32,798 nucleotides of DNA from a bacterium HR34. GTDB taxonomy: Bacteria; Patescibacteriota; Minisyncoccia; Minisyncoccales; HRBIN34. The notes under the pieces were generated by a model, which saw only the letters and a list, made by a program, of their open reading frames with translations, was not told where the DNA came from and made no database searches. The stretch covers positions 1 through 32,798 of the forward strand of contig BEIK01000007.1 of NCBI GenBank assembly GCA_002923395.1. Reading direction: 5' to 3'. Below are positions 20,996-32,798 of this stretch, one piece after another (the first letter of the stretch is position 1; the number at the start of each line of letters is the position of its first letter). The translations under genes and the position numbers were made by a program.

Positions 20996-21493
20996 TTAGA
21001 AAGATGGCAACTTTATTATTAAGAGATCAGGGTTAATAAACTGTATTACTATAAAAGATACTGCTATTACAACCAAACCAATTATTGCGTAAGTTATATC
21101 TTCTTTTGCTTCTTGCATTTGCGCTGAATTACCGCCTGATGTTAAATATCTAAAACCACCTATAACTATTTTTATAAAAGCAAAAAGAGCAGACAAAGAA
21201 ATCATAAAATAGTAAGCCCAGGCAATTAAATCAACTAATGATTGTTTTTCGTTTAAGTCATATCCTCCGAATTCCGGAAAATCAAGATTAAGGCAAATAG
21301 GCGCCTGTTTTTTTAGATAGCATTTATTGTTTTTATCAATATCTAATGTTGAGCAAGAAACCCATTTACATTCTATGTTTTTATAACACTCCTCTTGACG
21401 GAGTCTTTCACAGACATTTTGCGCAAAACTTAAATTAGAAAACCCCATAAATAAAAATAATAAAAATGTTATTACTGTAAAAGTTTTCATCAT
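20996..21493 (-). CDS. VirB2/TrbC-like pilin candidate with Cys-rich ectodomain
   Basis: A 165-residue protein from the ATG at 21493, which overlaps the TGA of the upstream gene (ATGA); an ORF start at 21532 would overlap 43 bases and is less likely. A signal peptide (about residues 1-25, ending SFAQ) precedes a small domain with six Cys residues. Two membrane helices form a hairpin (about 92-118 and 136-155), joined by GGFRYLTSGGNSAQMQEAKED. That hairpin is the pattern of VirB2/TrbC pilins in these lineages. It would be the extracellular filament subunit or a channel component. It is the last gene of the T4SS operon. Confidence 0.72.
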   Translation of the reverse strand: MMKTFTVITFLLFLFMGFSNLSFAQNVCERLRQEECYKNIECKWVSCSTLDIDKNNKCYLKKQAPICLNLDFPEFGGYDLNEKQSLVDLIAWAYYFMISLSALFAFIKIVIGGFRYLTSGGNSAQMQEAKEDITYAIIGLVVIAVSFIVIQFINPDLLIIKLPSF

Positions 21494-22461
21494 TTTTCTC
21501 TTAATGTTAATACTACTGTTATTGTCCACCATGGTATTAAACCTACTAATGGTATTAATTCTAAAATAAGCCCACCCACCACTCTTAGTAAAACCCTTCT
21601 TAAAGGCGCTCTCGTTGCTTTTTGTTCTATTTGTTTTAATTCTTTTTGCATCATTTTGGCTTTCTCACCCATTCTTTGCTGTAATTGTTGCACTCTTTGC
21701 TGTTTTGACCTTGCCATTTCTCTTAATCTATATAGCATCCACAAAGTGATTATAAAAGTTGCCAAAATATCCAATCCTAATGATAAGGCCTCTCCTATTG
21801 TGAAAGCAGTTATAAATTGAAGTATTGTTAATATAGAATCAACACTATCTACTATAATAGCAAAAATTAAAATTACTATAAAATCAATATCTGTGGCTTC
21901 AATTCTTTTGGATTCTGCAAGAGCGGACAACCCTTTCTTTAACGCTTTAAGTTCCCCCCTTTGTGCCATCAACTTTATTTCTTCCATTTTCAATTTTGCT
22001 TTCTCTTTTACACTTTTAGCCTTTTTTTGCCTTTCCTTAAGTTTTTCTCTCTCTTCTTCTATTTGTTTCCCTTTTTCCTCTAAAATTTTATAAGCATCTT
22101 CCCTGCCAAATAAATTCTTATTACTAAGTTCTGTTGTATCATTTATCATCGCAGGGTTAAATTCTTGTTCACTTCCATATAACCCATCTCTTTTACTTCT
22201 TTCTATTTTCATTCTTTCAAGAAATGGTTTTTTCTTTTCTTCTTCTTTTATTTCCTCTAAACTTTTAAACTTAGTTCCTTTTCCTTTTTTTGGAGAAATA
22301 CGATTACCTTGCGGATCATAATAATACTCTTCTTCATCTTTGTTTATTACATTACCGTATTCATCTACATCAGACTCTCTTCTTTTTTTCTTGGGCTTAC
22401 TATCATTTATTTTATATTTCTTAACAAACCCGCCGCCTGGGAGAAACGGATTAACTGCCAT
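21490..22461 (-). CDS. T4SS-associated coiled-coil membrane protein
   Basis: A 323-residue protein with a charged, Lys/Glu-rich cytoplasmic N-terminal half, including a coiled coil at about 125-185. Two membrane helices follow (about 192-217 and 222-245), then a second coiled coil (about 248-282, QQ-rich) and a final hydrophobic stretch (290-318). It lies between the VirB4-like ATPase and the pilin candidate, with which it overlaps by an ATGA junction. I recognise no named family. Position suggests a scaffold linking the ATPase to the membrane channel. Confidence 0.68.
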   Translation of the reverse strand: MAVNPFLPGGGFVKKYKINDSKPKKKRRESDVDEYGNVINKDEEEYYYDPQGNRISPKKGKGTKFKSLEEIKEEEKKKPFLERMKIERSKRDGLYGSEQEFNPAMINDTTELSNKNLFGREDAYKILEEKGKQIEEEREKLKERQKKAKSVKEKAKLKMEEIKLMAQRGELKALKKGLSALAESKRIEATDIDFIVILIFAIIVDSVDSILTILQFITAFTIGEALSLGLDILATFIITLWMLYRLREMARSKQQRVQQLQQRMGEKAKMMQKELKQIEQKATRAPLRRVLLRVVGGLILELIPLVGLIPWWTITVVLTLREK

Positions 22462-22491: not shown

Positions 22492-24294
22492 TTATATAAC
22501 TCCTCCCTCATCTCTTGATACTAATTCTTCAGGATTTGTAGTTATAATTTTGTGTTCAGTAGGAGAGGCAACAACTTTTATGGCAACATGCTGTTGGCCG
22601 GCGAAAAATATTCCTTCTCCCAAATCTGCCTCTAACAAGAGATATTTTTCAGCGTCTGTCAAATTAAAAACTTTTTTAACCAAATCAATAGTAGCAGGAC
22701 TTTGTTTTAAAAGTAGTTGTAAAGACGAGTTTGTTATTATTGGCTGACCATAACTTGACGTTAAGAAGTCGCCAACATCCTGAGTTATGGTTGTAACACC
22801 AAGCCAGTATTTTCTCGCTCTCTTTACCATACCATACAAAAATGCCGCTCCTTCTTCTGTTTGCATCATCCACCATGCCTCATCAACAATTAAAATTCTC
22901 TTTTTCAACTTTGCCCTAATTTGATTCCAAATATATCTCATTATTACATACATTGCCATTGGCCTTAACTCGTCTTCCATATCTCTTATACCAAACACAA
23001 CAACAGGTTTGTCCTCCATTTGTATGTTAGTTGGCTGGTTAAAGAAATTGGCATATGTTCCTTTAGTAAACTTCCTTAATCTTCTAACAAGCGATTCTGC
23101 CCCTTCCATTGTTGATAAAACTTCTTCTAAATCCTGCATTAAAGGCACATTTTCCTGCCATTTTTCATAAGGAGTATTGGGAGTTATATCTTTTACGGCA
23201 TAAGTTTCTGTTAAGGCTCTGTCTATAATTGCGTCTTCTTCTGGGGTAAGGCCTCCTAGCATAATTTTTAACAATCCAACCAAGTTTATTATATTAGACC
23301 TCAAAACATCTTCTGGTCTTTCATCCTCTCTTATTGGCGGGAGATCAAATGGGTTTATATGGTTTTTTGCAGACAAAGAGAAATCAAGATAAACTCCACC
23401 CACTGCTTTTGCCAAGTTTCTATATTCATTCTCAGGGTCTATTATTATTGAGTTAACCCCTACCATTGCATATCTTAAAACTTCAAGTTTAACAGCGTAA
23501 CTTTTACCAGAACCACTTTTAGCAAAAACGGTAGAGTTGGCATTTTCCAAGTTAAATCTATCAAACAAAACAAGAGAATTGTTGTGAATGTTTATTCCAT
23601 ATAATATTCCCTCATTAGTACTTAAGTCAAAAGACACAAAAGGAAACATACTTGAAAGAGTGCTGGTATTTAGCGCTGTGTGAACAACAAGTTTGTCTAA
23701 TCCATAAGGTAGTGTTGTGTCAAATCCTTCTTTTTGTTGGAAAACTGCAGGTTTTATGTATATTAAGCGGGATTCTAAAATTGCTCTTAATGTCGTCTCA
23801 ACATTTCTTAAATCATCTGGATTTTCTCCATAAATTGTTATATATACTCCAACTCTAAACATTCTCTCTTGTGCTCTTTGTAGTTGATCTCTTAATGTTT
23901 CAAGGTCTTGGTAAGTTGTTTCCAAAGCAGGATCTCTAACATAACCTTTTTCTGCCCTCTCTGCTATTTCCAACTCAATTTCAGCGACCTTTTTTCTTAG
24001 TTGTTTTAATATCTTCGTTGTGTCTATTGGGAAAATGTGTATTGATACATCAAAAGGAACATCTAAATTCACAACAGGAGAAAACCAACCTGTTGTTAAA
24101 TATCTTGGATAAGAAAATATGAAAAAAGTTTTTGATAACCTTTCGCCAAATTTAATATAATTTTGATAGACCTCAAAAGCAGGAGGCGCTATAATGTCAG
24201 CCAAAGTTATATTGGCAGCATCTACAACAACCTCCTCTATTGTTTTTTTCTTCTTATCTTTTTGGCCTAAGTTTTTTAAGAATGGTAAATCCAT
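22492..24294 (-). CDS. VirB4/TraC-like T4SS ATPase
   Basis: A 600-residue ATPase of the VirB4/TraC family that powers substrate transfer and pilus assembly. An N-terminal part (about 1-230) resembles the middle of VirB4, with a coiled-coil insertion near 100-145. The motor follows: Walker A AKSGSGKS (258-265), IIIDPENEYRNLA (288-300), Walker B RILIVDEAWWMM (466-477) and TITQD (502-506), then ITNSSLQLLLKQS. It lies 11 bases downstream of the gene encoding the small N-terminal partner. VirB4 function is thus apparently split over two polypeptides. Confidence 0.88.
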   Translation of the reverse strand: MDLPFLKNLGQKDKKKKTIEEVVVDAANITLADIIAPPAFEVYQNYIKFGERLSKTFFIFSYPRYLTTGWFSPVVNLDVPFDVSIHIFPIDTTKILKQLRKKVAEIELEIAERAEKGYVRDPALETTYQDLETLRDQLQRAQERMFRVGVYITIYGENPDDLRNVETTLRAILESRLIYIKPAVFQQKEGFDTTLPYGLDKLVVHTALNTSTLSSMFPFVSFDLSTNEGILYGINIHNNSLVLFDRFNLENANSTVFAKSGSGKSYAVKLEVLRYAMVGVNSIIIDPENEYRNLAKAVGGVYLDFSLSAKNHINPFDLPPIREDERPEDVLRSNIINLVGLLKIMLGGLTPEEDAIIDRALTETYAVKDITPNTPYEKWQENVPLMQDLEEVLSTMEGAESLVRRLRKFTKGTYANFFNQPTNIQMEDKPVVVFGIRDMEDELRPMAMYVIMRYIWNQIRAKLKKRILIVDEAWWMMQTEEGAAFLYGMVKRARKYWLGVTTITQDVGDFLTSSYGQPIITNSSLQLLLKQSPATIDLVKKVFNLTDAEKYLLLEADLGEGIFFAGQQHVAIKVVASPTEHKIITTNPEELVSRDEGGVI

Positions 24295-24305
24295 ATAATT
24301 TTATT

Positions 24306-24971
24306 TTATACTGTTAATTCTGGTGGAAATTGTGGATAAGCGCCAACCTCAGCCTCTGCTATGTGATATGATGACCAGAATAACTCTGCTATTTCAGCAG
24401 TATTTAAAGGAACAGATTGCAACCCGCATCTTCTTAAGCCTAACGCAACAAACTCCATTCTTTCATAAAGCGCGTTTTTATATCTTTGGAATTCTTGCTC
24501 TGTTATTCCGCCAACATTTTTTAGGCTTATAGAAAATAAATCTATCGTATCCCCTCTTTTCAAGGTTTCTTCTGCCTTTGAAAAAGGTACAACAACAAAA
24601 AAATTTTTAGACATTATTTCTCCCCATTTGCCAACAGGCGGAGCGCCTTCTATTAAATCCGCAACAAATTCTCTGTAAGACGCTATTTGTTCTTTTAATA
24701 ATGGATTTTTCTGTTTTACCTCGAGTTCTTTTAGTGTGTCCAAATAAAGAGTAAAATTTAACCTTCTTGACTGCACTAATATTTGTATTGGGAAATCCAA
24801 AGAATTTAAAAAATCTTGAAAAGAATAAATTATGGCTGTTTGCTCATCTTCTGATTTTAGAGCAAAATTTATTGGAGAAACCATTAAAATTCCTCTTAAA
24901 GCGCCATTTTTAAGCAATATAACCCCTTCTCTTATTTGTGAAAATTCTAATAAACTTTGAGTCGAAGGCAT
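24306..24971 (-). CDS. TraC/VirB4 N-terminal-domain-like protein
   Basis: A 221-residue soluble protein that resembles the N-terminal domain of TraC/VirB4: an opening like LLEFSQIREGVILLKNGALRGILMV, followed by a fold with RRLNFTLYLDTL and a C-terminal helical part. It has no Walker motifs. It sits between the PrgI-like gene and the VirB4-like ATPase with 4- and 11-base gaps. The simplest reading is that the ancestral VirB4 was divided, or that this domain is always separate in this lineage. Confidence in the fold is moderate. Confidence 0.65.
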   Translation of the reverse strand: MPSTQSLLEFSQIREGVILLKNGALRGILMVSPINFALKSEDEQTAIIYSFQDFLNSLDFPIQILVQSRRLNFTLYLDTLKELEVKQKNPLLKEQIASYREFVADLIEGAPPVGKWGEIMSKNFFVVVPFSKAEETLKRGDTIDLFSISLKNVGGITEQEFQRYKNALYERMEFVALGLRRCGLQSVPLNTAEIAELFWSSYHIAEAEVGAYPQFPPELTV

Positions 24972-24975
24972 TATT

Positions 24976-25386
24976 TTATGTTATTAAAGTTTTTAATTTT
25001 GTATTAAGCGTTCCCAAACTCCCCTTTCTTCTTTCTACTTTCAATTGAGGTTCCTCTTCCTCTTCTTTTATTTCAATTGTTTTCATAACCAGCCTTGGCA
25101 TTACAACTTTTTTTTGCCAGACATACCTTTTTGTTATAAAAATAAAATTAAAACTACTTTTTAGAAATTCAAGAAAAGGCTTTCCTTCTATTTTTACAAA
25201 AGCAGTAGCAAAAGCGCCACCTCCTAAAAATATTATTACAAAAACTAAAAAAAGAATTGGTACTCTAATAAGAAAAGCAAGAAATATAACCAAAAAAGCG
25301 ACACCCAAAACAACGGCCTGCCTAACAGTTAAAAAGCCAATTATTTTACCTTCGTATTCAATTTGTGGAACAACATATCTTTCCAT
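24976..25386 (-). CDS. PrgI-family (VirB3-like) membrane protein
   Basis: A 136-residue protein whose opening RYVVPQIEYEGKIIGFLTVRQAV fits the PrgI family, which takes the VirB3 role beside VirB4 in Gram-positive and CPR T4SSs. Two adjacent membrane helices cover about residues 24-42 and 43-65. A basic, then acidic C-terminal tail follows (KEEEEEP near 113). The neighbours downstream are the VirB4 N-terminal partner and ATPase, as expected for a VirB3 equivalent. Confidence 0.82.
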   Translation of the reverse strand: MERYVVPQIEYEGKIIGFLTVRQAVVLGVAFLVIFLAFLIRVPILFLVFVIIFLGGGAFATAFVKIEGKPFLEFLKSSFNFIFITKRYVWQKKVVMPRLVMKTIEIKEEEEEPQLKVERRKGSLGTLNTKLKTLIT

Positions 25387-25812: not shown

Positions 25813-28227
25813 TTATAAATAATCATCTATTTTTGTTTGGCCGCCTTCTCTTGTTGTCCTTTTTTTGCTTTTTCCTAATTCTTCTAACGTACGCTCTAAA
25901 ACAGAAGCCTCAGTTGTATATTTTGAACCACGTATTTCCTCTACTAATTCTACTAATTCTTTATCCTTCTTTTCCATGTAAGATTTAGCCAAAATATCTA
26001 TCATTTCTCTCTTTATTTCACTGCTTACTTCCTCATCTTTTAAAATTGATATTATTGCATAAGAAGTCATAGATTTCATAATATCTTTTGCTATATTCCT
26101 GTATCTTATTTTTTCTTCTTCTTCACTTACTCTTAATGATTTATCAATAACTTCATTTAATGCCTTTCTATTAAATTTCGGACCAAAACTTCTGCCCGTT
26201 ATTGTAACAAGCTGAGAGTAAAATTTAGCAGCTTTATCCCTCTCGCTTAGAAGTTCTACACCCTCTGCTTTATTTAATTCATCTACAATCTCTTTAATTT
26301 TAACGTCGTCTAATTCAAGTTTTTCTTTATTTTCCGTGATTGATTTTATAACTTTTTCTTTTACTTTTCTATAAGTAGCGAGATCACCTTCAATTAAACT
26401 TTCAATATCATTATCTGTTAATCCTAATTTATCTTTATTTTCTTTAATTAAACTTAAAACACTTGTTATACTATCACTACGATCAATTCCGGCAATACTA
26501 TTTTTTAAATTTTCTAATTCTTCTTTGCTGATATGAAGTTCTTTTTGATGTTTTTCAAGGATTTTTATAGTTTTTTCCATATCTTCTTCTGTGGCCTCTT
26601 CAAATTTGCTTATAGTTAAACCTAACACATTTTCTAAATCATCCATTTTTTCAATAGAAGAAGCAGCCTCCATAAGTTTTACAACTTCTCCAGTATTTAA
26701 TTTTTCAACTATTTCTTTTTGTTTCCCTCTTCTGTATGCCTCCATTAGTATTTTGAGTTTTTCTGATGGATTTATTGCTCTGAAATATTGATTTTGAAGT
26801 TCTTCCTGACTTGCACCCTCTTTCACGTGTGTTTTGTTGTAAATTTCTAATTGCTCATCTTTTGAAGTTAGTTTTCTGCCAGCTCCTGTTAAAATTCTTC
26901 CTACTGTCATTGCTGTCACAGGATGCCTAAATTTAGCGCCTTGTTCCATCATTCTCTTACCCATTGGTTCCGTTATTCTTTGTTTTAGACCTCCTCTAAT
27001 TTTAGTTCCAAGAGATGATTTACTAGCACCTTCTTTTATTTTACCTTCTAACCACCTTGCGCCTCTTTCTGCTCTACCTAGTGCTTGATGTGCTTGAGTA
27101 GGACCAAACCTCGAAGCCACCCAAATGCCCATAAATATTATTACAAAAGACATTGCGGCCGTAGTAGCGAATCCTAAAAAATCTCCCCAAGTATTAACAT
27201 TAAACAAATTAAATCCACCAATATTATCCTTTACTTCCCCTGATGCTTCCAACGCGCTTTTTAATTGTATCGTCATAGTGTCTTTTGTTATCTCCATAAA
27301 AGAAGCCGCTAAATAAAGAGAAAACAATACAGGTACTCCCAAAAACGCCCAACTTATTAAAGCACCCCACCACCTTTGAAACCAACTTCTTGTTCCCGGG
27401 AATATATAAGCCAAAAAAGCCATAGGCCCAAAAATGGTTATTAGATAAAGTGCCACCTCTCTGATTTTGAATAGTATAGCCAAAATAGCAAATACAATTG
27501 TTCCAATTGAGTAATACATAAGCTGGACAAGATAAAACATCAAAAGCGAAGTGCCAGCTTGCCAAACGTCTATCTCTTTAGAACTTCCTAAGTTATCAAA
27601 AACTTTTGAAAACATATCCATCAAAGGATCAAAGTTAACATTATTTGAAAGAGTGTAAACAGTATAACTGTCTCCAACTGCTTTAATGAAAAAATTATTC
27701 AAGATAGCCGCTACATCAACAAAAAAAGCAACAACAACTCCGCTAAAGTTTATTAAGACAGCCGAAACTATAAAAGGAATTATGAGTTTTTTTATTTCAT
27801 ATTCAGCAATTCTTAAAATAGTTGCAAAACCCATTGCAACCAAAATTATCAAGTAAAACATATTAGCAAAATCCTTCATAAAATTCCACATTCTCGTTAC
27901 TACTTCGTTTGTTTCTGGAGCGCCTGGCAGAACAGAAATACTTATGCTGTTGGCTATAAATAAGTTAAAAGTTAGAAAAACAACTATTTTATATACCTGC
28001 TCTGCTAAAAGAGCAAAAACAGCAGTTATCAAACTAACGATTAAAACTCCTCCTGCAAGAAAGAAGTTTGTAAGGCTAGTTAAAAGATTGTTAAAGTAAC
28101 AACCTATATCTAATCCGCAACCTCCTTGAGCAAATGAAAAACTTGGCGCTGAAACTAAAAATCCCACCACAAAAAGAAAAGCAATGTATTTAAAATTCTT
28201 TTTGAAAAACGAATTTATTTTTTGCAT
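25813..28227 (-). CDS. VirB6/TrbL-like polytopic T4SS channel protein with long cytoplasmic tail
   Basis: An 804-residue protein. A signal-like start (about 1-34, ending SFAQ) is followed by multiple membrane helices: about 55-76, 78-100, 120-140, 148-178, 226-255, 258-278, 287-308 and 352-372. This is the VirB6/TrbL pattern of the translocation channel. The helix pair near 258-300 includes ALYLITIFGPMAFLAYIFPG, with a Trp-rich loop (RSWFQRWWGAL). Residues 385-804 are a long, charged, helical tail, presumably cytoplasmic, of unknown function; it may contact ATPases or DNA. It is the first gene of the minus-strand T4SS operon. Confidence 0.8.
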   Translation of the reverse strand: MQKINSFFKKNFKYIAFLFVVGFLVSAPSFSFAQGGCGLDIGCYFNNLLTSLTNFFLAGGVLIVSLITAVFALLAEQVYKIVVFLTFNLFIANSISISVLPGAPETNEVVTRMWNFMKDFANMFYLIILVAMGFATILRIAEYEIKKLIIPFIVSAVLINFSGVVVAFFVDVAAILNNFFIKAVGDSYTVYTLSNNVNFDPLMDMFSKVFDNLGSSKEIDVWQAGTSLLMFYLVQLMYYSIGTIVFAILAILFKIREVALYLITIFGPMAFLAYIFPGTRSWFQRWWGALISWAFLGVPVLFSLYLAASFMEITKDTMTIQLKSALEASGEVKDNIGGFNLFNVNTWGDFLGFATTAAMSFVIIFMGIWVASRFGPTQAHQALGRAERGARWLEGKIKEGASKSSLGTKIRGGLKQRITEPMGKRMMEQGAKFRHPVTAMTVGRILTGAGRKLTSKDEQLEIYNKTHVKEGASQEELQNQYFRAINPSEKLKILMEAYRRGKQKEIVEKLNTGEVVKLMEAASSIEKMDDLENVLGLTISKFEEATEEDMEKTIKILEKHQKELHISKEELENLKNSIAGIDRSDSITSVLSLIKENKDKLGLTDNDIESLIEGDLATYRKVKEKVIKSITENKEKLELDDVKIKEIVDELNKAEGVELLSERDKAAKFYSQLVTITGRSFGPKFNRKALNEVIDKSLRVSEEEEKIRYRNIAKDIMKSMTSYAIISILKDEEVSSEIKREMIDILAKSYMEKKDKELVELVEEIRGSKYTTEASVLERTLEELGKSKKRTTREGGQTKIDDYL

Positions 28228-28262
28228 CGCTGTTTTTATTTTTATTTATTTTATTATACTAC

Positions 28263-28317
28263 TAAAACTTTTGTAAAGCAAAATTAGGAAAATTAATTTT
28301 TTAAAAAATTTCTTGAC
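28263..28317. repeat. 55-bp direct repeat, copy 1
   Basis: It is identical over 55 bases to 28868-28922. The shared block ends inside the -35 hexamer (cTTGAC) of a predicted plus-strand promoter, so the repeat brings the upstream half of the promoter to two different small genes. The block is almost all A/T. Confidence 0.95.
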
Positions 28318-28341
28318 TTATGATTGATTTTTAGTTATTTT
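28313..28341 (+). promoter_or_regulatory. Promoter of small-gene cassette 1
   Basis: TTGACT (28313-28318), 17-base spacer, TATTTT (28336-28341). The expected start point is near 28348, so the transcript would start at or just before the GTG/ATG at 28348/28351 and be leaderless or nearly so. Confidence 0.6.
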
Positions 28342-28350
28342 GAAAGTGTG

Positions 28351-28563
28351 ATGAAGAACGTAGGAAGAATGGCAGCTCTAGGAATTATATGGATTTCTAT
28401 AATGGCAGAAACTGCATGGGGGAAGGTGGTAAGTTCCCGATCACCCCCCCCAGACCCTTCATGGACATGGGGGGGAATACTTACGCTTGTGCTGATGGTT
28501 TTACTTATGGCTGCTGCGGTGAGTGTCATTTTCATTGCCTGGAAAATGAAGGTGAGAAGGTGA
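28351..28563 (+). CDS. Small membrane protein of cassette 1, unknown
   Basis: From the ATG at 28351 the frame gives 70 residues: a short basic start (MKNVGRM), a hydrophobic first segment (ALGIIWISIMAETAW), a Pro/Ser/Arg-rich loop (SSRSPPPDPSWTW), then a strong membrane helix (about residues 40-64) ending in KMKVRR. Two membrane segments with basic ends recall small toxins or holin-like peptides, but no family is recognised. GC content is visibly higher than in neighbours. C8 and G7 runs lie in the loop, and another frame is open over part of it (Cys-rich), so the true frame is not certain. The last codons form the left arm of a terminator-like hairpin. Confidence 0.4.
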   Translation: MKNVGRMAALGIIWISIMAETAWGKVVSSRSPPPDPSWTWGGILTLVLMVLLMAAAVSVIFIAWKMKVRR

Positions 28564-28610
28564 GTAGATAATACTCACCTTATTCTCACCATAATTCCCC
28601 CTTTTTTTTT
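28551..28610 (+). terminator. Terminator-like hairpin at the end of cassette 1 ORF
   Basis: Left arm 28551-28566 pairs with 28572-28590 apart from a 3-base bulge, around a short loop, and is followed by CCCCC and a T9 run (28602-28610). It overlaps the stop codon of the 28351 ORF. Confidence 0.55.
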
Positions 28611-28620
28611 CTTAACCCCG

Positions 28621-28647
28621 ACCCCTGGCAAAGGCCAGGGGTTTTTA
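28621..28647 (+). terminator. Intrinsic terminator of cassette 1
   Basis: An 8-bp stem CCCCTGGC/GCCAGGGG (28622-28629 and 28634-28641), AAAG loop, then T-run to 28646. The surrounding block 28611-28662 is nearly identical to 29079-29131. Confidence 0.88.
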
Positions 28648-28673
28648 AGTTAAGATTAGAAACAATTACTCAA

Positions 28674-28865
28674 GTTATTAAAAAATCAAAGGTTATTTTC
28701 ACTAACAAAAACATGTGAACCAATTTGCATGGTTCTCTTTCGTCTATCCAGTTTGTTTTTGGATTGTCTGTTTTGTTTTCATTTCTTACTCCTTTGTATT
28801 TTACAATTCAACTATTTGGATAATTTATTTCAGGTGGTTTTAGTTTATCTGTTTCTGACGATTCT
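28674..28865 (-). pseudogene. Fragment of the large surface-protein gene (3' part)
   Basis: Bases 28674-28774 are identical to 29643-29743, which lie inside the large CDS starting at the right edge. The following bases to about 28865 keep weaker, collinear likeness to pieces near 29918-29945 and 30105-30135, with the intervening parts missing. The fragment has no start or stop of its own. It is a remnant of a duplicated copy of the neighbour gene, shrunk by deletions. Confidence 0.8.
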
Positions 28866-28867
28866 AA

Positions 28868-28922
28868 TAAAACTTTTGTAAAGCAAAATTAGGAAAATTA
28901 ATTTTTTAAAAAATTTCTTGAC
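28868..28922. repeat. 55-bp direct repeat, copy 2
   Basis: Identical to 28263-28317 (605-base offset). It again runs into the -35 hexamer of a plus-strand promoter. Confidence 0.95.
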
Positions 28923-28945
28923 ATATTATTATTTTTAGTTAGTAT
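28918..28945 (+). promoter_or_regulatory. Promoter of small-gene cassette 2
   Basis: TTGACA (28918-28923), 16-base spacer, TAGTAT (28940-28945). Start point expected near 28952, giving a leader of about ten bases before the GTG at 28962. Confidence 0.6.
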
Positions 28946-28961
28946 AAAAGTACAATAAGGG

Positions 28962-29051
28962 GTGGTAGGAAAGAGCGAAATAAAAAAGAGACGGAGTAGG
29001 CCGAAATTAATAGCAAAGCAGAGGGGCCTAAAGGCATACAGAAGAAGGTAA
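28962..29051 (+). CDS. Small basic 29-residue ORF of cassette 2
   Basis: A GTG at 28962 opens 29 codons with many Arg/Lys residues; it begins MVGKSEIKKRRSRPKL and ends LKAYRRR. AAGGG lies directly ahead but is very close to the GTG. The charge resembles small ribosomal or nucleic-acid-binding peptides, but I cannot match a family. Alternatively the transcript is a structured small RNA: TAGGCC (28997-29002) can pair with GGCCTA (29025-29030). The frame is supported mainly by its position between a promoter and a terminator. Confidence 0.35.
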   Translation: MVGKSEIKKRRSRPKLIAKQRGLKAYRRR

Positions 29052-29090
29052 GATACAATTAACTTCCTCCCTTTTTTTCTTAACTCCGAC

Positions 29091-29115
29091 CCCCTGGCAA
29101 AGGCCAGGGGTTTTT
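29091..29115 (+). terminator. Intrinsic terminator of cassette 2
   Basis: Stem CCCCTGGC/GCCAGGGG (29091-29098 and 29103-29110), AAAG loop, T5 run. It is the same hairpin as at 28621-28647. Confidence 0.88.
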
Positions 29116-29431
29116 AAGTTAAGATTAGAAAACATATTTTACTTAAAATCGCCACCAAAATATTTTAGATATATTCTATCTGCACTTAATTTTCATTAAA
29201 AACTCCTATCAATGTAATTCAGATGTTTCAAATAGTGAAGCTTTGTAGCAGGTAAAAGACTTTTATTTAAGGCTATTTATTATAGTTATTTGAATTATTG
29301 TTTTTTATTATCCCTATTAAATTTCAATATATAAATAATAGAATAGCAAAAACTTTCCCATAAAATTCAATTGTAGTTAGGCTATTTTATTATGAATCAA
29401 AATGAATCAAAATAAATATTTTAAAATTTTT

Positions 29432-32400
29432 CTAAAACCCTATTGAAAACAAAGGAACTTTCATGCCAAGTAGATTAATTATTGTTGTGATGATTATCCA
29501 GCCAAAGATTGCCACACCATAACCTATTAAAACATATTTGAATCCTGTTATTGCTTGATGTGTGAGCGCTGGAATCCTTATTATATAGTTTGCCGCGAAA
29601 ATCCCAACAACCATTAGAACAGCAACTATTAACATAAACCTTGTTATTAAAAAATCAAAGGTTATTTTCACTAACAAAAACATGTGAACCAATTTGCATG
29701 GTTCTCTTTCGTCTATCCAGTTTGTTTTTGGATTGTCTGTTTTTCTGCCGCAAGGAGTTATTGAAAAAATGTTTTCTGATACCTTTGATGGTATTAAAGT
29801 AAAGTTCACGCTTACAGGAGTACTTATAAACTCATCAGTACATTTATCTTCAATGCAAGAATACATTGTTAAGGTATAATCTCCCAAGCAATAAATATCT
29901 GTTTGAGCATCGTTTTCCGTCCCTTTGTGCGTTACAATTCCGCTTTTAATAACAGAACCTATTTTATCAACACAACTTTGGCTAACTTCATCATCTGATT
30001 TGCTCTTATATTTAAACTCATATTTGTAATACCTTGGAGTGACAGAGTCTCTTGGAGCATTCCACTTTATATTAAACCCAACTTGGGCCTTATCGCCATT
30101 TACTGGATAAGTTATTTCAGGCGGTTTTAGTTCAGAAATTTTAAACGACTTTGATGTTTCTGGTCCGCAAAAAGCCTTAATTCTTTCCTGTGGTATGGTT
30201 TCTGGATCTTTAATATCAGGAAATCTGTCAGCGCAAGTTCGTATTGTTAAGCTATATTCTTTACCTGGTTTTATTTCTGGATAATCAAGAGTAACTTCAG
30301 GATTGCTATAATCAAGATTATACAGAGGATCAAGAATTATTTTATGAAAAACATTTCCAGTTGCCTCTTCTTTAATTTCTACATAGTAAGAGGCTATTCC
30401 TTGTCTGTAATCGTTTACTAAACTTTCTGGAGTTTTATCAAAATGATTTGGCCTTTCTGTTATTACTATTTTGTCTGGTATATTTTCAGGTACTTTTACT
30501 TTTTCTGATTTAACCTGAGCGCCTGATGTAATAAGAGTAATTGTACTTTTATTTACGCAACTTTCTTCTATAGCACCTTTAATCTCAGATAGACCTGTAG
30601 AATCTGTTTTATACAATAAAGATGGATTATTTGGATAATTTTGATGTTCGCCAGTAAACTCCGGACTTTCTAATGGATTTTTAGAGCAAACATAAAGATT
30701 TAAGTAATAAGTTCTATTAGGTTTTAGGATTGGCTTTGAATACCCTTCTTTTGTAAGCCATAAATCACCTATTGTTATTTCATTTGAAGTTACTACAGCC
30801 AGACCTGCAAACTTACCTGGAGTTCCATTTGTTACATCAACCAATTCTACAGCATAAGCCCTATACCCTAATATTGGATTCCACTTCACAACTGTGTCTA
30901 CATTAACAAGCGTTGGGCTTTTTTTTGGAGTTATAAATCCTCTTTCAATAAATTCTGCCTCTCCTACAAATATCCAATCCTGCCCCATTTCAGCGCCATA
31001 ATAGTACCCTAGCGCTTCTTCTTGTTTTGTTAATGGTTTAACTCTTGCTTTTTCATCTGGCTTTCCATTGTTTGTAAGTTGGCACGCTATTCCATCATCT
31101 CTTAAACAAGTTGCAATACTCCATTTGTATAGAACATTTGATGTAAAACTTTGAAGAGTTGTTCTAAAATATGGTTCTACTGTTTTAAATGTTGTTGGAG
31201 TTAATTTTACTTCTCCTTTTAATAGAGGTGGAGGATATGTTGTTTTATTAACAACAGCGCCATGATAATCTCCTAAAATTTGGCCTTGTAAGTTAACTAA
31301 GCATGCAGGTGATGTTGGATCTATGGCGTACAAATCACTATAAGGGCAGTATTTTTCCCATTTAGGGTTTGTGTCAGTTTCCTTTATCCATAAATCCTCG
31401 GATTTACTATATTTTTCTTTCCAAAAATCGTCATGCCAAAACTTCAAGTAATAACTCTCCGCCTTCAAATATCCTTTTGAATTGTCTTTGTAGTCAGCAG
31501 GATAATCAACAGGGCACCACTCAAACAAAACAGGATAAGTGCTATAAAGTTGGTTAATGTTATTTTCTATCGCGTCATCTAATCGTATTTCTTTGCCACT
31601 TTCATCGTACCATTTAGTTAAGTTAACATTAGCATAATATTCTTTTAGTATCTGATGAAGTTTTTTCCTTTCTAAATCATCTCCATAAATACTTTCAGGA
31701 TATATTTCACTATAATTGAGGACCCAATTTACATTAGGTCCAAGGCGTAGCAGTTCAAAATCAGGATCAAAAGGATATTTTGGCTCTGGTGCAATAGAAG
31801 TGAATATTTTTTGTTCACCGTAATTATAAGTTTCTCCTGTTTTATAGCCATAACTTACATTTATATCAGTATATGTTCCTGATTTTAAGAGACATTGAGT
31901 CATTTTTTGATAATTTTCATTATCATTAATAGGAGGGTATAAAATTCCTCTATATTTTTTATTAAAGTCCACTTTAATTATTGGTAGATATCTATTGTAG
32001 TAATATTCTACTGTGTTTAAATAATCGTAAAAATCATACACAAAATCATTTGTATCCAAAGATATATTGGAGGCATTGTAAAATAAATATAAATCTTCTA
32101 ATGATTCTAAATTATTCTTAAACGCATTTTTGTAGTTTACTTGTGTGAAATCTCTTATTTCATATTTTGGGTCAACCTTTGTTGGAATAAAGTCCTCGCA
32201 TTTTTTGTTAGACAATGGATAAAACAATATATAAGCAGAAGTAGCCTCATTTTTACATTCATCCTCATTTTTAATGTCAACCAAAGTTCCTTGTTCCCAA
32301 TGCCCCTTTCCTGAGTCGTACTTTGCTTTTTCACCATACAAAGGCAAAGTAGATTTCATTGGATATTCATTTAAAGGAAATCTGTCTAAGTAATCTTTTA

Positions 32401-32798
32401 CTATTTCTTTTGTATATTCACCCGATCCCTTTTGCGTATTAAAAAATTCAATAATATATCTGTCAGGGCCTCTTAAACTATCAATCCAACCTAAAACTTT
32501 ATTCCAAGAGTATTTGTATATTGGAAGTTTGTATTTACTATTTTCTTTTTCTTGAGTTCCTATGATGTTTATCTTAGTCCCGGCGCTTATTTCTCCAGGA
32601 TCCCACGGTCTCCCTATACCTTCATCCGCAAATAGATTAGCACCCCTCCAATAATAACCTGCTTCTGATATAAAGTTGTCAAAGTTTCCAGGGAAGTTGT
32701 TTTCGTTATCTTGCATTCCAGGGTAATACATAAAAGGAGTGCGGTAGTAAATTTTCCCGCTTTCTTTTCCTATCTCAGAAGCATAACAAGTAAATGTT
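29432..32798 (-). CDS. Very large cell-surface protein with Fn3-like repeats and C-terminal membrane hairpin, 5' end beyond window
   Basis: The frame is open to the right edge (about 1,121 codons visible), so the first in-window Met (32731) is not the start. Most of it is extracellular-looking: Tyr/Asn/Pro/Asp-rich, few Lys clusters, scattered Cys. Several Fn3-like modules lie in the C-terminal half (for example PPEITYPVNGDKAQVGFNIKW followed by a YTLTMYSC strand). The last 75 or so residues form two membrane helices joined by a loop with ITGFKYVLIGYGVAI, similar in layout to VirB2/TrbC pilins and to the 20996-21493 protein. A role as adhesin or filament tip of the T4SS is inferred. The gene precedes the T4SS operon on the same strand. 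Confidence 0.72.
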   Translation of the reverse strand, partial: TFTCYASEIGKESGKIYYRTPFMYYPGMQDNENNFPGNFDNFISEAGYYWRGANLFADEGIGRPWDPGEISAGTKINIIGTQEKENSKYKLPIYKYSWNKVLGWIDSLRGPDRYIIEFFNTQKGSGEYTKEIVKDYLDRFPLNEYPMKSTLPLYGEKAKYDSGKGHWEQGTLVDIKNEDECKNEATSAYILFYPLSNKKCEDFIPTKVDPKYEIRDFTQVNYKNAFKNNLESLEDLYLFYNASNISLDTNDFVYDFYDYLNTVEYYYNRYLPIIKVDFNKKYRGILYPPINDNENYQKMTQCLLKSGTYTDINVSYGYKTGETYNYGEQKIFTSIAPEPKYPFDPDFELLRLGPNVNWVLNYSEIYPESIYGDDLERKKLHQILKEYYANVNLTKWYDESGKEIRLDDAIENNINQLYSTYPVLFEWCPVDYPADYKDNSKGYLKAESYYLKFWHDDFWKEKYSKSEDLWIKETDTNPKWEKYCPYSDLYAIDPTSPACLVNLQGQILGDYHGAVVNKTTYPPPLLKGEVKLTPTTFKTVEPYFRTTLQSFTSNVLYKWSIATCLRDDGIACQLTNNGKPDEKARVKPLTKQEEALGYYYGAEMGQDWIFVGEAEFIERGFITPKKSPTLVNVDTVVKWNPILGYRAYAVELVDVTNGTPGKFAGLAVVTSNEITIGDLWLTKEGYSKPILKPNRTYYLNLYVCSKNPLESPEFTGEHQNYPNNPSLLYKTDSTGLSEIKGAIEESCVNKSTITLITSGAQVKSEKVKVPENIPDKIVITERPNHFDKTPESLVNDYRQGIASYYVEIKEEATGNVFHKIILDPLYNLDYSNPEVTLDYPEIKPGKEYSLTIRTCADRFPDIKDPETIPQERIKAFCGPETSKSFKISELKPPEITYPVNGDKAQVGFNIKWNAPRDSVTPRYYKYEFKYKSKSDDEVSQSCVDKIGSVIKSGIVTHKGTENDAQTDIYCLGDYTLTMYSCIEDKCTDEFISTPVSVNFTLIPSKVSENIFSITPCGRKTDNPKTNWIDEREPCKLVHMFLLVKITFDFLITRFMLIVAVLMVVGIFAANYIIRIPALTHQAITGFKYVLIGYGVAIFGWIIITTIINLLGMKVPLFSIGF

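Follow-up and report, generated by a model that had tools for sequence, protein, structure and literature searches.

The window analysed here, which comprises all 32,798 bases of contig C7 in a genome of 579 kb and 22 contigs, ends in the 3′ part of a giant gene (29432..32797, minus strand; 1,121 codons) whose product carries a C-terminal membrane hairpin that profile comparison identifies as a divergent homologue of the PF18895 T4SS pilins. The protein has a large ectodomain with Fn3-like modules before this hairpin, and ectodomain-bearing pilins are linked to T4SS genes in many families. With moderate confidence, we suggest that the giant is probably a Sec-exported, ectodomain-bearing pilin homologue that docks on VirB6/VirB4 and serves as a contact stalk, its topology, assembly and adhesion being the inferred parts of this reading.

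Because the window is the entire contig, the 5′ end of the giant gene is absent from it, and the frame of the 1,121 visible residues remains open at that end. Hydropathy analysis revealed exactly two membrane segments, at residues 1049-1067 (helix 1, 29597..29653, minus strand) and 1085-1103 (helix 2, 29489..29545, minus strand), both also seen by AlphaFold2, and none elsewhere. The protein terminates 18 residues past the second segment; its hairpin ends in MKVPLFSIGF, and a sortase LPXTG motif is absent from the C-terminus. When the last 300 residues were modelled with AlphaFold2 from an alignment of nine sequences (mean pLDDT 76), a beta-sandwich emerged, followed by helices 215-252 and 255-288, which form a long hairpin.

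Upstream of the hairpin, strand motifs, profile comparison, AlphaFold2 and Foldseek delineate an array of at least four Fn3-like modules (29768..31300, minus strand; residues approximately 500-1010). A strand motif of the type Y-x-(W/L)-x-(V/I/M)-x-x-C occurs four times, at residues 557, 697, 848 and 974. The family profile matches Fn3/Ig chains in the PDB, including Tie2 (angiopoietin-1 receptor; E = 0.0019), the modelled beta-sandwich matches Fn3 domains in Foldseek, and orthologues carry Ig/Fn3 Pfam matches, with the Ig domain of Rha78A found in 11 of 35 family members. These lines of evidence agree with the first-pass annotation of this DNA, which had described more than 1,100 residues with Fn3-like modules closed by two membrane helices and a loop. 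The pilin-like neck and hairpin (29447..29764, minus strand; residues ~1012-1117) bear a family signature upstream of helix 1, GLVPCGR-x2-(D/N)-x-P-x-T-x-W-(N/D)-E-R-x-x-C, whose two cysteines (C1016 and C1034) are invariant in the family alignment and could possibly form a disulfide. On average, the hairpin loop contains 2.75 basic residues (K/R/H) and 0.6 acidic ones.

Pfam and NCBIfam scans of the full giant and of its last 96-122 residues returned no significant match, and no direct HMM match to PF18895 (T4SS_pilin) reached the curated cut-off. The kinship emerges instead through relatives: by blastp (7e-6), the giant hairpin matches a pilin of 171 aa encoded in the same genome, which itself matches PF18895 at 3.4e-4, under the curated cut-off. 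Profile-profile comparison by hhalign aligned the giant family with this PF18895-like pilin at 4.4e-12 and with a bona fide small-pilin alignment at 1.5e-6, and 12 of the 35 family members match PF18895 directly (best 2.7e-9). Like the PF18895/VirB2-like pilin arrays of Patescibacteria, the giant has a two-helix hairpin with a short basic loop, a VirB4/VirB6 location and profile homology, and its relatives carry an export signal; unlike these pilins, which are small (about 100-200 aa), it spans at least 1,121 aa, about ten-fold more, places an Fn3-like and beta-repeat ectodomain before the hairpin, and scores under the Pfam cut-off.

The first-pass annotation had likened the hairpin to VirB2/TrbC. 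Homology to T4SS pilins is upheld by hhalign, blastp and the matching orthologues, but the family proved to be PF18895. The giant resembles TrbC/VirB2 conjugative pilins in overall hairpin layout, whereas its genome holds no PF04956 (TrbC/VirB2) match at E ≤ 0.001, and that family was rejected by profile; marginal PF04956 matches occur in one orthologue (0.0047) and one paralogue (0.0034). Foldseek comparison of the hairpin did not recover VirB2, and a bona fide small-pilin control equally failed to do so, a test that cannot discriminate.

The hairpin-coding end of the giant gene lies 5 kb upstream of a split VirB4, and VirB6 adjoins. Downstream of the giant on the minus strand, the next gene encodes a VirB6/TrbL-like protein (25813..28227; Pfam TrbL 6.4e-8), followed by a PrgI/VirB3-like protein (24976..25386; Pfam PrgI 8.8e-7), a TrsD-like N-terminal half of VirB4 (24306..24971; NCBIfam), a VirB4 ATPase of the CD1110 type (22492..24294; NF045971 7.3e-110) and a conserved 323-aa membrane protein of the locus without clear family (21490..22461; Pfam, NCBIfam and related loci). 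Such a division of VirB4 (22492-24971), with the ATPase encoded apart from the TrsD-like N-terminal part, is conserved in these loci. The last member, also on the minus strand, is a small pilin with a signal helix, a Cys-containing domain and a hairpin (20996..21532; PF18895 7.6e-10 and model); it had earlier been listed as a pilin candidate at 20996-21493 and is a true PF18895 T4SS pilin with a longer reading frame. In relatives, the usual order is ksgA - giant - (ectodomain pilin) - virB6 - prgI - virB4N - virB4C - small pilin - yidC.

The intergenic region between virB6 and the giant gene contains an exact 101-nt copy (28674..28774, minus strand) of the neck-coding DNA (29643-29743). The copy is stop-broken and non-functional, and may be a recent partial duplication, a gene-conversion scar or an assembly artefact. 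Two imperfectly duplicated plus-strand cassettes (28232-28662 and 28837-29131) each combine a TTGAC box with a strong terminator of the GGCC-stem type, and a small ORF for a membrane-type product of 79 aa (28324-28563) lies in the first. An Rfam search of this region gave no match above gathering.

The missing 5′ part had been expected on a flanking contig. The right end of C7 shares no DNA overlap with other contig ends, and since seven other joins show 99-nt overlaps, we take this gap as unsequenced. Synteny points to contig C8, which carries the single-copy ksgA of the genome. At the left end of C8, an ORF of 692 aa that overlaps the ksgA stop is cut off by the contig edge; it encodes a signal peptide and glycine-rich beta-type repeats. 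In 21 of 37 cases the giant orthologue starts right at the ksgA end or only tens of bases away, and the genes flanking on C8 (encoding a 705-aa RNase PH/S1/KH protein, a 118-aa protein, a 508-aa protein and, on the opposite strand, a LysM + M23 peptidase) are those found upstream of the giant in relatives. The peptidase (L090:2952-4019), VirB1-like in role, lies on the opposite strand beside ksgA and the giant in about 30 relatives.

Because four further contig ends (C13, C22, C2 and C18) bear truncated secreted or membrane-type ORFs without known partner, the C8-C7 join rests on synteny, not on elimination. On this basis, we are confident that the 692-aa ORF represents the 5′ part of the giant gene, and the full protein would then very probably reach at least 1,813 aa. 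The giant's own 5′ end being off the contig, the export signal is seen as the signal peptide of the C8 ORF and of most orthologues.

A tblastn-type search identified relatives of the giant in 67 of 147 genomes of the same order (E down to 1e-37), with the last ~290 residues conserved in the top-scoring ones; a separate related-locus search queried with the giant protein itself gave no match. Elsewhere in the phylum the order-specific hairpin is weaker (41 of 116 genomes, mostly small pilins). The fetched related loci contain 37 giant-type ORFs that reach 400 aa or more, and in 32 of these cases virB6 follows at most 6 kb downstream on the same strand. In an independent sample of 80 named loci centred on VirB4, the 43 with full flanks were counted: a pilin-hairpin protein is present in 40, and it attains at least 300 aa in 27, at least 500 aa in 21 and at least 1,000 aa in 9. 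Across 40 genomes from 40 families, for which the best 150 PF18895 matches were listed, proteins of at least 300 aa make up 30 of the 40 matches within 20 kb of VirB4 versus 26 of the 110 elsewhere (odds ratio 9.7; Fisher p = 2e-8), linkage statistics that are somewhat inflated by the phylogenetic non-independence of the sampled genomes.

A mirror-image form was also identified, in which a signal peptide is followed by the hairpin and then by a C-terminal extension of up to 2,127 residues. The hairpin-first proteins of loci L135, L118 and L138 measure 2,271, 2,113 and 2,075 aa, respectively; of the three, only L118 matches PF18895 itself (7.4e-6), and L135 and L138 were identified with a profile that we built from small pilins (E = 1.7e-13 and 4.1e-16). 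In VirB2 pilins, the N- and C-termini both face outwards, and a pilin topology with both termini external would permit ectodomain grafting at either end. One genome (G230) harbours two tandem hairpin-first pilins (L172:14272-19899), the second running into masked N; an apparent 14,266-aa hairpin ORF in the same genome was discarded, as its frame includes masked N.

The giant layout thus recurs across the order and its mirror image across the class. The proposed family of large ectodomains on pilin hairpins is borne out by the 37 giant-type ORFs together with the hairpin-first forms, and the anticipated co-occurrence with VirB4 and VirB6 in other Patescibacteria by both locus counts. The two observations named in advance as damaging to the proposal, an anchor of unrelated family and a lack of T4SS linkage elsewhere, did not appear.

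The T4SS locus is not the only site of ectodomain pilins. In the same genome, contigs C16 and C4 share a 99-nt overlap and carry three ectodomain pilins in a row (L011:2-3228, L010:3-1721), flanked by metG-like and infB-like genes; in one of these pilins, a PF18895 hairpin is apparently joined to a secreted protein of the metallo-beta-lactamase fold. These three sit away from VirB4, which would suit a giant that serves at the cell surface in general, as an adhesin or envelope protein, and has its gene near the T4SS without being part of it, with the hairpin a mere membrane anchor co-opted from a pilin; the awkward size of the giant for a pilus subunit and the divergent hairpin sequence point the same way. 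We nevertheless regard this explanation as rather unlikely: dozens of genomes from different families retain the ksgA-virB6 slot, long PF18895 forms concentrate near VirB4, and bare pilins can fill the slot, as a secreted pilin of 143 or 152 aa does in two genomes.

Same-genus comparison revealed that the giant ectodomain (68-75%) is conserved as much as the hairpin, and no fast, adhesin-like evolution was seen within genera. This equality speaks against a fast-switching adhesin, not against an adhesin as such. It would also fit a structural T4SS part, such as a scaffold that crosses the peptidoglycan or S-layer in place of missing VirB8 and outer parts and binds no partner directly; in keeping with such a role, the giant is a conserved single gene, its divergence resembles that of VirB6, and in Patescibacteria, VirB8 and proteins of the outer complex are seldom found (PMC12102498). 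However, a structural spacer would hardly be expected to vary as much between families as the ectodomain does in length and content, being absent in a 143-aa form and reaching about 1,200 aa at the other extreme, and a Pfam scan found no peptidoglycan-binding domain in the giant; we consider a purely structural role improbable. That the giant is instead an effector exported by the T4SS, as a large protein whose gene lies beside the machinery might be, seems highly implausible given the C-terminal membrane hairpin homologous to pilins and the signal peptides of its relatives.

For the favoured reading as an ectodomain-bearing T4SS pilin, the following mechanism can be proposed. The protein would be exported by Sec, and its C-terminal hairpin would insert like a VirB2 pilin, with both ends outside and a short loop inside, so that at least 1,000 N-terminal residues (probably about 1,700, comprising beta-repeats and Fn3-like modules) point outwards. 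Because the giant is a T4SS-locus product encoded beside virB6, its most likely docking site is the VirB6/VirB4 channel, where it would act as a minor pilin or as a subunit of the tip or crown; a uniform pilus built from such large subunits is sterically unlikely. The stalk may then contact the partner microbe and so stand in for the VirB5 or PrgB-type adhesins of other systems, for which patescibacterial T4SSs of this type have no reported counterpart. Counting against the T4SS-pilin reading are the lack of a direct Pfam match of the giant's own hairpin, the ectodomain pilins away from VirB4 and the missing adhesin-like diversification.

In the Agrobacterium virB operon, virB5 lies directly upstream of virB6. 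The giant gene occupies the corresponding position, and a role like that of the VirB5 pilus-tip adhesin is possible; however, Pfam and NCBIfam detected no VirB5 family match in the giant, and VirB5 has neither a membrane hairpin nor Fn3 modules. Like the PrgB/LPXTG conjugation adhesins of Gram-positives, the giant is a large surface protein of modular build whose gene accompanies a T4SS of the monoderm type, but it has a pilin hairpin in place of a sortase LPXTG anchor, and no polymer adhesin domain was found.

T4SS pilins of Patescibacteria are already known. As described in PMC12102498, patescibacterial T4SSs are of the monoderm type, with VirB2-like pilin arrays found via PF18895/PF04956, and a PrgB-like adhesin was not detected. 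The T4SS and its pilins are essential in S. epibionticum, the one Saccharibacterium tested, where epibiotic growth depends on the T4SS (PMC10633639). In Paceibacterales cultured with methanogenic archaea, T4SS pilins rank among the most expressed genes, and Ig-fold proteins are also highly expressed (PMC10936435). In the portions of the open-access literature searched in which PF18895 pilins are counted, PMC12102498 included, we found no mention of giant ectodomains on them.

The means by which Patescibacteria recognise their hosts and hold on to them have long been sought, and the giant family provides named, testable candidates. As a tentative generalization that we hold possible though somewhat doubtful, T4SSs of the Parcubacteria type may rely, for contact or at the tip, on giant pilin-derived proteins that are specific to each lineage and bear an ectodomain of about 300 to more than 2,000 residues at either end of the hairpin. 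Such proteins would take the place of VirB5/PrgB-type adhesins and contribute to determining the microbe that an epibiont grips. The family would extend the range of cargo that a T4SS pilin can carry, and its layout offers a concrete candidate for how ultrasmall Parcubacteria-type epibionts grip other microbes.
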